Shown in pieces: positions 8,672 to 53,160 of a stretch of DNA of 64,000 nucleotides. Made by a program: the position numbers and the translations under genes. This DNA is from Williamsia sp. 1138 (GTDB lineage Bacteria; Actinomycetota; Actinomycetes; Mycobacteriales; Mycobacteriaceae): the NCBI RefSeq assembly GCF_002095435.2, contig NZ_MJEJ02000043.1:126084-190083 (forward strand). Direction: 5' to 3'. Numbering within the stretch: the first letter of the stretch is position 1; the number at the start of each line of letters is the position of its first letter. The notes under the pieces are model-generated. The model was not told where the DNA came from, searched no databases, and saw nothing but the letters and a program-made list of their open reading frames with translations.

Positions 8672-10627
8672 ATGCCGGATACCGGACCAGACTTCCAAGA
8701 CCTGGAGGCGAACTACGAACAGTGGTCCGCCGCCGCTGCGCAGGTACTCGCGAAGTCCAAGCGGGTCGACGTCGCGGATCTTCGCGACACCCCTGAGGCG
8801 TTGCTCTCGACGATCACGCCCGACGAGCTCGTCATCAAACCGCTGTACACGCGCCGAGACGAAATAGACGAGCCGGGACTGCCGGGTACGTATCCGTTCG
8901 TCCGCGGAAGCGATCCCACTCGCGATGTGAACATGGGTTGGCGGGTCACCGAGCGTTTCGGTGACCCGGGAGACGTAGCGAAGCGGAGCTCGACCAGTAG
9001 TCCAGGAGACGTGGCGAAGCGGAGCTCGACCGATGAGCCACTGAGCGAGCCGCAGGATCCGGCGGCGTTGAATGCGGCCATTCTGGACGCGTTGAACAAC
9101 GGTGCCAGTGGCCTGTGGCTGACCGTCGGACCGGACGCGATCGGCGTCGATCAGCTGGCGGCAGTTCTCGACGGTGTCCTGTTGGACCTGATCCCGGTGA
9201 CGATCGATGCGGGTGCTGCGGGCATCGAAGCCGCACGAGTCCTCGCGCCGCTGCTACCTGATACCGCGAGCGTCGGTACTGCCTCGTCCTTTGGATTGGC
9301 CCCGCTGACCGCTGCGTATTCCGGCCGTCCCGCCGTGGACCTCGACGCCGCTGTGCGCGTTGCCGCAGAAGCCGGTCCCGGGGTTCGTGCCATCCGCGTC
9401 GACGGCACCGACTTCGCACTGGGGGGCGCCACCGATGTGCAGGAACTGGCCTTGGTCACCGCAGCGGGTGTCGATTACCTGCGTGCCCTGACCGCAGCGG
9501 GTGTGGCTGTGGACAGCGCGCTGTCGCAGTTGACGTTTGCGCTGTCCGCCACCGACGACCAGTTCGGCACGATGGCGAAGTTCCGCGCCATTCGGCGGTT
9601 GTGGGGCCGCGTCGCCGAGGCCTCCGGGGCGCCCGAGGCGGGCGCGGCGGTGACCCATGGGGTCACGGCGCTGGGAATGATGAGCCAGCGCGATCCCTGG
9701 GTGAACATGCTGCGGGTCACCACGGCGACGTTCGGTGCCGGGGTGGGCGGTGCCGATCAGATCACCGTGCTGCCCTTCGATGCCGCATTGGCCCCCGCCG
9801 ATCGCACGACCAACCCGAGCTTCTCGCGGCGCATGGCGCGCAACACACAGTTGCTGCTCCTCGAGGAGTCCAACGTCGCGAAGGTCGTCGATCCGGCAGG
9901 CGGCGCGTGGTTCGTCGAATCCCTCACCGACAACCTGGCGTCGGCCGCGTGGGCATTGTTCCAGGACATCGAATCGAAGGGCGGCTACCGGCAGGCGCTG
10001 GCCGACGGCTGGATCGGCGAACAGATCGCCACCGCGCTGACCGCCAGGGAGAAGGCCGTCGCGCACCGCACCACCGCGCTCACCGGGATCAACGAGTTCC
10101 CGAACCTCGGCGAGAAGCCGTTGCGCACACCGGAGTCGGCGGATTTTGCCGATCTGCCGTCGGCGGCGCCCGTCCTCGCTCGCATTGCTCGGCCATTCGA
10201 ACGACTGCGGGATCGCTCCGATGCCCATCTGGCCGCGCACGGCCATCGGCCGACCGCGATCATGTTGCCGTTGGGTTCGGTCGCCGAGCACAACGGCCGG
10301 ACCACGTTTGTCGCGAACCTACTGGCGGCCGGCGGAATCGAAACCGTCAACCCCGGTCCACTGGACGGTGCTTCTGTGGCCGGGGCCATCGAAGCCGCCG
10401 GGACCCCGACGGTCGCAGTGCTGTGCGCTGCCAACCCGCGGTATGCATCGGACGGCCCTCCGGCGCTCGCCGCAGCGCGGGCCGCAGGTGTGTCGACTGT
10501 GTTGCTCGCCGGACCACCCAAGGCATGGACCGATGAGTCGGACAAGCCGGATGGTTATCTGCAGATCGGGATCGATGCGATCTCGGTGTTGACCGAATTA
10601 CTCGACACGATCGAGGCGAAGAGCTGA
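8672..10627 (+). CDS. mutA: Methylmalonyl-CoA mutase small subunit
   Basis: The small (beta) subunit of adenosylcobalamin-dependent methylmalonyl-CoA mutase, which interconverts (R)-methylmalonyl-CoA and succinyl-CoA in propionate, odd-chain and cholesterol catabolism. It has the MCM TIM-barrel core ([11 protein letters not shown] near 55, [36 protein letters not shown]) and a degenerate C-terminal cobalamin-like domain. At 651 residues it is longer than the mycobacterial protein (about 615). The excess lies at residues about 98-128, where GDVAKRSST occurs twice in tandem within a disordered-looking insertion. The start ATG 8672 has GAAGG about 11 nt upstream. mutB follows after one base, so the two are coupled. 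Confidence 0.95.
8944..9031 (+). repeat. Inverted repeat plus tandem 27-bp direct repeats inside mutA
   Basis: GGGTCACC at 8944-8951 pairs with GGTGACCC at 8961-8968 (perfect 8-bp stem, 9-nt loop). It is followed by two copies of a 27-bp sequence at 8969-8995 and 9005-9031 that differ at one position and are 36 bp apart, thus in frame. Each encodes [10 protein letters not shown] third copy with the same coding frame ends prcB (53091-53118). The block falls where MutA is longer than its relatives, so I infer an inserted intragenic element. Confidence 0.8.
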
Positions 10628-52099: not shown

Positions 52100-52294
52100 A
52101 TGGCGCAGGAACAAACCAAGCGCACGGGCGGTAATGACGACGACAGCGATTCCGGTCCCGATTCGGGTGCCGGTCAGGAACGCCGTGAGAAGCTGGCCGA
52201 CGACACCGACGACCTGCTCGACGAGATCGACGACGTGCTCGAAGAAAATGCCGAGGACTTCGTCCGCGCCTATGTCCAGAAGGGCGGCCAGTGA
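52100..52294 (+). CDS. pup: Prokaryotic ubiquitin-like protein Pup
   Basis: A 64-residue, intrinsically disordered, acidic tag. The C-terminus is Lys-Gly-Gly-Gln, so it is made in the Gln form and must be deamidated by Dop before PafA links it to substrate lysines. The region [22 protein letters not shown] is the helix that folds on the ARC coiled coil. An excellent ribosome-binding site precedes ATG 52100, and its stop overlaps the prcB GTG (GTGA), coupling tag and protease synthesis. Confidence 0.97.
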
Positions 52295-53160
52295 CCGATC
52301 GAATCCGGTCTCTCGGCCAGGACATCTCATCGTTTTCCGACTACCTGCGTGATCACGCTCCAGACTTGTTGCCCAAGAACAGGTTTCCAGAGGGGGCTAC
52401 CGCGAACATTCCGCACGGCACCACCATCGTCGCGATCACCTACCCCGGTGGGGTGGTGATCGCGGGTGATCGTCGTGCCACTGCAGGTCACCTGATCGCC
52501 AGCCGCGACATGCGGAAGGTGTTCATCACCGACGAGTACTCCGCTGCGGGCATCGCCGGCACAGCTGGCGTGGCCATCGAGATGATCCGGTTGTTCGCCG
52601 TGGAGCTCGAGCATTACGAGAAGATCGAAGGCGTATCGCTCACGCTCGATGGCAAGGTCAACCGCCTCGCGTCGATGGTCCGCTCGAACTTGGAGGCCGC
52701 AATGGCCGGATTGGCGGCGATTCCGCTGCTCGTCGGCTATGACTCAGATGCGATAGATCCGCAGCGTCCAGGCCGCATATTCTCCTTCGACGTCGCCGGT
52801 GATCGACACGAGGAACACGGCGGCTACCAGGCCATCGGATCGGGATCGGTGTTCGCGAAGTCTTCGATCAAGAAGCTGTACCGCCACGACCTGACGGCGG
52901 AGCAAGCACTCGAGATCGCTGTCGAGTCGCTGTACGACGCGGCCGACGACGACTCCGCGACAGGCGGGCCCGACATGGTGCGTGGTCTCTATCCGACCGC
53001 GGCAACAGTGGGTCCCGACGGTGCGACGGTCGTCCCGGCCGACGACATCGAACAAGCAGCGCGCTCCGTCATCTCCCGTCGTTCCGCAGCGGGAGACGAA
53101 GCAAATCGGAGCTCGACCCGGATCGCCGATGGTGGCGTCAGTGCAGGTGGTGAAGCGTGA
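52291..53160 (+). CDS. prcB: Proteasome beta subunit PrcB
   Basis: The catalytic subunit of the 20S proteasome. A 43-residue propeptide precedes Thr44, the mature N-terminal nucleophile (HGTTIVAI), followed by [12 protein letters not shown] (Asp and Lys/Arg of the active site region) and [15 protein letters not shown]. The 289-residue protein ends with an unusual tail, [17 protein letters not shown], in which GDEANRSST matches the repeat in MutA. GTG 52291 overlaps the pup stop and the prcB stop overlaps prcA GTG 53157, so pup-prcB-prcA are coupled. Confidence 0.97.
53091..53118 (+). repeat. Third copy of the mutA-type coding repeat, at the 3' end of prcB
   Basis: The 28 bp here match mutA positions 8968-8995 at 25 of 28 bases, and the reading frame is the same (GDEANRSST versus GDVAKRSST). 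The copy lies in the C-terminal tail of PrcB, outside the conserved fold. Independent occurrence in two unrelated genes with conserved frame points to a dispersed intragenic element. Confidence 0.75.

Follow-up and report, generated by a model that had tools for sequence, protein, structure and literature searches.

A 27-bp repeat dispersed inside and outside genes of Williamsia and Actinomycetospora is probably an ultra-small mobile element

The window, the whole stretch of 64,000 nucleotides of Williamsia sp. 1138 analysed here, contains two genes that carry the same short repeat. The first, mutA, encodes the small subunit of methylmalonyl-CoA mutase (651 aa; open reading frame at 8672..10627, + strand) and matches TIGR00642 with 547.5 bits, below the model's curated cut-off of 617. 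The second, prcB, encodes the proteasome beta subunit (289 aa; 52291..53160, + strand) and matches TIGR03690 with 353.3 bits, above the cut-off. A 27-bp core, GGAGACGNAGCGNAGCGGAGCTCGACC, occurs three times in the window, twice in mutA and once in the tail of prcB. The first mutA copy (8969..8995, + strand) has no mismatch to the query and the second (9005..9031, + strand) has one; both are translated as GDVAKRSST. Between them lies a 9-bp spacer, AGTAGTCCA (8996..9004, + strand), and core and spacer together give a 36-bp unit. The single copy in prcB (53092..53118, + strand) is partly decayed, with three mismatches, and reads GDEANRSST. By arithmetic it makes up residues 268-276, past the conserved domain, since the profile match stops at residue 265.

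An earlier note, made from the letters of the window, had described three in-frame copies in these two genes and had put the prcB copy in the C-terminal tail. The mismatch scan, the translations and the profile match bear out both points; the copies are real, but the span given for them began one base too early, the shared core being 27 bp. A chance origin can be rejected, because 100 dinucleotide shuffles of the window contained no core copy and reversed-pattern controls gave none in the genome scans (a shorter 15-mer control gave one).

Searching the source genome (G000, 6.08 Mb), we found 38 places that match GGAGACGNAGCNNAGCGGAGCTCGACC with at most three mismatches; the reversed pattern had no match. 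Of these places, 36 are covered by 25 arrays or single copies at different loci. All nine Williamsia genomes carry the element, with 19-53 copies each at up to one mismatch (reversed control, 0); among them, G001 is taken as W. faeni, G002 as W. limnetica, G004 as W. muralis and G005 as W. soli. The earlier note had held that a total of three copies genome-wide would speak against mobility; the search returned dozens, well above three.

Outside the genus, the distribution is patchy. A scan of named genomes gave at least 116 stretches, and among the 80 matches listed 66 belonged to Actinomycetospora, 13 to Williamsia and one to Mycobacterium. Within the family of the source genome the core was present in 12 of 401 genomes, namely the nine Williamsia and three with one copy each. 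In a class-wide sample it was present in 3 of 394, the source genome and two of these single-copy family members, and the other sampled Actinomycetes were nearly without it. In the family of A. lemnae, by comparison, 17 of 249 genomes had the core, including all 13 Actinomycetospora tied to named loci. Williamsia and Actinomycetospora, the two carrier genera, sit in different orders. Copy numbers in Actinomycetospora range from low (callitridis 6, cinnamomea 9, chibensis 12) through intermediate (endophytica 27, TBRC 11914 35, soli 39, NBRC 106375 56, termitidis 70, succinea 72, NBRC 106378 76) to high (lutea 93, chiangmaiensis 112, lemnae 120), and four further carrier genomes in that family have 87, 67, 3 and 1. 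Such a spread, from 6 to 120 copies across 13 genomes of one genus, is what bursts of amplification would give.

To describe the anatomy of the element we compared 59 arrays assigned to Williamsia with 103 assigned to Actinomycetospora; some of the named loci (L171-L206) were allotted to a genus by their G+C content, and the 103 include one Mycobacterium locus, L107. In both genera 25 of the 27 core positions are 92-100% one base, a figure that is partly an artefact of selection, because all arrays were picked within two mismatches; positions 8 and 13 are free. Hypermutation of these two positions was considered and rejected: within arrays they gave 8/242, against 70/3025 elsewhere, and are about as variable as the rest. 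The common 27-bp form consists of two near-fixed ends of 11 bp each, GGAGACGNAGC and GGAGCTCGACC, around a 5-bp middle. Actinomycetospora also has a long form of 45 bp, which keeps both 11-bp ends around a different middle of about 23 bp. There were eight long-form matches at up to 13/44 mismatches, seven of them at up to 8, in 727 kb of Actinomycetospora-assigned loci that had been fetched for the short form (reversed control, 0); 1.05 Mb of Williamsia DNA, overlaps included, gave none. The shared ends also showed in a scan of the fetched loci for paired ends up to about 100 bp apart. Many sites are tandem arrays. Their periods in the loci read are 36 (45 times), 33 (22), 34 (8), 35 (6) and 39 (once), and the Actinomycetospora-assigned arrays read have period 36 throughout. 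Whatever the frame, the core holds few stop codons.

Two other repeats were seen along the way. At G000:C52:1937-2141, five GAGGCGGAGCTCGAC motifs follow one another in 38-bp steps (one doubled) within another surrounding unit, and this tandem repeat has only the GGAGCTCGAC end in common with the element. In A. lemnae, the right flank of the L100 locus (query 239-289) contains a palindromic repeat, GTGAGCACTTTCGTCGGCTATAGCCGACGAAAGTGCTCAC, found on both strands at more than ten listed places and at some places in other Actinomycetospora. It is a second dispersed repeat, unrelated to the 27-bp element.

The earlier note had likened the repeat to a palindromic-type or selfish one, and the palindromic type is not supported. 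The core has no inverted repeat and no hairpin, and it folds no better than its shuffles; nor does it have terminal inverted repeats, neither 11-bp end being an inverted copy of the other. These properties bear on whether the element belongs to the REP/REPIN class or another MITE-like class, moved by a RAYT transposase or by an insertion sequence of the same genome whose ends match those of the repeat. Small size, high copy number and likely mobilisation in trans would all agree with such a class. The lack of a palindrome or terminal inverted repeat does not, and neither does the absence of RAYT (Y1_Tnp, PF01797) from all 18 carrier genomes searched; the same search was positive in 5 of 14 control genomes. 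We consider membership of this class very improbable. With neither palindrome nor RAYT, the data support a mobile intragenic element and leave its palindromic type unsupported.

To place the arrays relative to genes we used a GC3-filtered codon model, which covered 153 of the 162; nine too close to a locus end were excluded. The model called 36 of the 153 inside genes. In Williamsia all 14 in-gene arrays are in sense orientation, ten in the GDxAxRSST frame and four in the ETxRSGAR frame, some of them being the same site in two species. The Actinomycetospora in-gene arrays (L107 excluded) comprise 13 sense and eight antisense, and this sense excess is not significant (p = 0.38). GDxAxRSST is the commonest in-gene frame, at 20 of 35 over both genera. 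The shared reading frame that the earlier note had reported holds for all three copies in the window. Genome-wide the frame varies: some copies are read as ETxRSGAR or RRxxxAELD, and others are antisense. Periods of in-gene arrays in Williamsia are 33 or 36 only (10/10), against 36/50 multiples of three elsewhere (p = 0.10), a difference that is only suggestive of the reading frame constraining array periods.

Orientation is also biased between genes. Between co-directional genes, sense arrays outnumber antisense ones by 22 to 8 in Williamsia (p = 0.016) and by 44 to 11 in Actinomycetospora (p = 9e-6), and arrays between divergent and convergent genes number 26 and 6. Among the 66 sense arrays between co-directional genes, the upstream stop falls in the 30 nt that precede the element in 32 cases (the scan began at that distance) and in the 60 nt that follow it in 25, which puts these elements in a C-terminal tail. 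The strand bias outside genes could stem from selection in transcripts or from a strand-coupled insertion step. Could the element simply be a set of ordinary minisatellites, each a tandem repeat that arose locally on its own, or else a peptide module under selection at the protein level? The many tandem sites and the prevalence of GDxAxRSST among in-gene frames are what one would expect then. However, one and the same core recurs on both strands and in several frames at loci that have nothing in common and often lie outside genes, which makes an origin of this kind hardly credible.

Copies were also noted in isoleucyl-tRNA synthetase genes. Three Mycobacterium-type genomes (M. pinniadriaticum, L107:1417-1443; G102 and G166; L298 and L299 near 1500) have one copy each, in frame and at the same position of this gene, read ETERSGAR or ETQRSGAR; the core is intact and just the two free bases vary. 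In W. muralis (L150 near 5736) an in-frame copy lies in an apparent isoleucyl-tRNA synthetase gene (PFEN..WF..DFIVEY.GQTR), at a position unlike the mycobacterial one.

We then compared filled with empty sites, tracing 11 of the 25 own-genome arrays into the eight other Williamsia genomes without a filter for intact copies. Relative to the other seven Williamsia, mutA has 72 bp (2x36), or 24 residues, more in the source genome and 108 bp (3x36) more in G002; its site is empty in seven of the eight congeners. An NRPS gene is filled in G000 and G002 and is empty, and 33 bp shorter, in G003-G008, that is, in six of the seven congeners compared (G002-G008). The prcB element is present in G000 and G007 and decayed in G005 and G002; it was not seen in G001, G003, G004, G006 and G008, whose tails differ. 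G000 has an intact copy at the L028 site, G007 a near-intact one, and G005 and G002 decayed ones. Among Actinomycetospora, A. lemnae carries exactly 36 extra bp in its L116 gene relative to all nine other loci compared; the L146 gene exceeds 10 of 11 others by exactly 36 bp, and the exception (L473, A. succinea) is filled as well. At L101 the short form adds 36 bp in A. lemnae, the long form adds 54 bp in A. lutea, and the five others compared have an empty site. Because these two inserts have similar 9-bp tails, a single insertion whose middle was exchanged may account for both, in place of two separate events. Alignments of L100, L123, L128 and L129 gave a less clear picture.

At the clear empty-site loci the addition thus equals the core plus 9 bp (36, 2x36, 3x36 or 54) and once the core plus 6 bp (33). 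That the repeat enters coding DNA without breaking the frame, as the earlier note had proposed, is supported at mutA, the NRPS gene, L116, L146 and L101, where orthologues in sister species are without it. The note had also held that the same segment at the same place in distant genera would speak against mobility; for mutA it is missing even from most congeners. Two sites complicate simple descent: G000 and G002 are filled at mutA and the NRPS gene, and G005 and G007 are empty there although they lie closer to G000 at several other sites. Explaining this takes loss, transfer or repeated insertion as well.

Across Williamsia, the 118 arrays fall at 68 sites, of which 40 were seen in a single genome and the other 28 in between two and six genomes. 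The set of sites is incomplete and favours intact copies; copy pairs with more than three mismatches, 22 of the 146, were dropped. At shared sites, such as L371 and L385, sister strains vary in unit length and free bases while their flanks match. In this intact-biased set, orthologous copies differ by 0.018 per site in the core, against 0.23 and 0.34 in the adjacent 20-bp flanks. The low divergence of the core, its near-invariance at 25 of 27 positions across two genera in preselected arrays, and an orientation that tracks transcription outside genes could all point to a functional DNA or RNA signal, kept by the host and read by a conserved protein or the translation machinery, whose spread would be ancient or secondary. 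Yet both conservation figures come from regions fetched around near-perfect copies, and the unfiltered tracing of orthologues shows decayed and missing ones. Furthermore, more than half of the sampled sites occur in a single genome, and most relatives are without the element. We regard such a signal as unlikely.

A separate observation concerns apparent clpP genes, which have an adjoining single copy in six Williamsia (L049, L340, L370, L398, L409 and L414), intact in five. One flank of this copy is hardly alignable between some genomes, and the copy may reflect either conserved use or repeated insertion.

The recurring 9 bp could derive from the target. At mutA, the left flank GGTGACCCG (8960..8968, + strand) is target-like: the empty sites of G001, G005 and G007 read GGTGATCCG, and the spacer AGTAGTCCA is similar to it. 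On the right, the extra 72 bp stop at about GATGAGCCA (9032..9040, + strand), which may be a diverged target duplication. In both genera, the likeness of array spacers to the local flanks on either side exceeds that in each of 300 shuffles. Compared with each other, the outer flanks are alike in Williamsia (0.40 against 0.27 shuffled, above all shuffles; 71 arrays, some the same site across species), and in Actinomycetospora they reach 0.43 against 0.39, not above all shuffles (12 arrays). A strong target-site duplication was seen at none of 116 single copies, and the single copies of Actinomycetospora show a weak excess at 9 bp that is equalled at 12 and 15 bp, a pattern expected from codon phase; for these reasons we call the pattern target-duplication-like only. 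Targets show a weak GG preference at most. A requirement for CTCGACC, prompted by two sites, was dropped when it showed no enrichment.

A constant core with 6-9 bp that match the target just partly would also be left if a fragment with these ends were trapped at staggered breaks by Ku/LigD and error-prone fill-in, with no dedicated transposase. End joining occurs in actinobacteria. This route, though, requires that one fragment, in versions with two different middles, be plentiful in the cell, and the period of 36 in Actinomycetospora arrays, together with three sites of exactly core plus 9 bp, suggests a fixed stagger and so argues against it. We find end-joining capture quite improbable.

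The repeat is dispersed over many loci, has empty orthologous sites, differs widely in copy number between genomes and keeps the same two ends in both of its forms. The empty sites and copy-number differences suggest that it is mobile and selfish, and we think it is probably an ultra-small non-autonomous mobile repeat that is mobilised in trans by an enzyme as yet only inferred. An enzyme supplied in trans would recognise the two ends and place a copy at a staggered cut. The stagger, of some 6-9 bp, would leave the target duplicated or imprecisely filled in, slippage or unequal recombination among repeated units would produce arrays, and copies would decay afterwards. Because insert lengths of 33, 36 and 54 are multiples of three and stops are few, in-frame peptides such as GDEAERSST would survive in tolerant regions; the encoded peptide would be a by-product, not the purpose.

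As for the mover, the mobile or selfish intragenic repeat of the earlier note stands as to dispersal and empty orthologues, but no gene for its mover was found, and its mobility is read from genome comparison. A reverse transcriptase is present in eight of nine Williamsia (G001 being without) and in three of nine Actinomycetospora (one below the cut-off), and it was set aside as the mover because its presence among carriers is inconsistent. The Williamsia gene (G000:C24:155339-155944 and orthologues; open frame of 429-494 aa) lies about 14-17 kb from the array of the L002 site in eight genomes. Phage or plasmid carriage was rejected as well: at the sensitivities used, neither a scan of viral contigs with the core pattern nor a search of phage and plasmid records with an array produced a match, and the long form gave none either.

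That the repeat represents a new transposition system, with a unit of 27 or 45 bp, two non-palindromic ends, an exchangeable middle, a recurring extra 9 bp and a mover that is neither RAYT nor a consistently present reverse transcriptase, is a tentative proposal that we take as a real possibility. If it is true, the system builds short peptides into conserved proteins and is common to two genera of different orders, and its unit would rank among the smallest mobile DNAs known. The repeat bears on an old question, how sequences of 20-30 bp that lack inverted repeats and carry no gene can spread, and offers a tractable case: it occurs in two genera, has 6-120 copies in Actinomycetospora, leaves clean empty sites, comes in two forms that share their ends and repeatedly adds 9 bp. 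Peptides are added in frame to conserved enzymes and to a proteasome subunit, and a comparison of high-copy with low-copy Actinomycetospora could reveal the mobilising enzyme.

We found no description of the 27-bp element in the open-licence literature, and several known systems resemble it in part. The palindromic elements of Rickettsia measure 105-146 bp, have terminal inverted repeats and lie in frame in conserved proteins and also between genes (PMC2229807). The likeness suggested by the earlier note holds for in-frame insertion into conserved protein genes whose relatives are without the insert; it fails for the palindrome, the terminal inverted repeats and size, our element being 27 or 45 bp (about four to five times shorter), non-palindromic and often in arrays. 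REP/REPIN sequences are very short repeats with tens to hundreds of copies per genome and inferred mobilisation in trans (PMC3116915). The 27-bp element shares all of these traits, whereas REPs form palindromes, lie mainly outside genes and are associated with RAYT, none of which is true of it. PARCEL repeats are described as coding tandem repeats with a punctate distribution suggesting horizontal transfer (PMC2996958). PARCEL, however, is a 25-residue amphipathic protein domain encoded by palindromic repeats, whereas the 27-bp unit is conserved as DNA, occurs in several frames and both orientations and is often non-coding. MITEs differ in having terminal inverted repeats, and minisatellites or VNTRs in having a unit private to one locus, where a single core occurs here at 25 own-genome arrays. 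Small dispersed repeats (SDR) of Nostoc were reportedly treated by Elhai et al. in 2008, and SDR5 is said to enter HIP1 sites. The literature cited here gives SDR as about 20 bp, dispersed and tandem and thought to be mobile (PMC2884548), and mention a precise insertion of SDR5 into a second sequence (PMC4390886). Unlike SDR, the 27-bp element belongs to another phylum, has targets with a weak GG preference at most, and shows the recurring 9-bp addition. Like them, by description, it is a short repeat that occurs both dispersed and in tandem and has empty sites.
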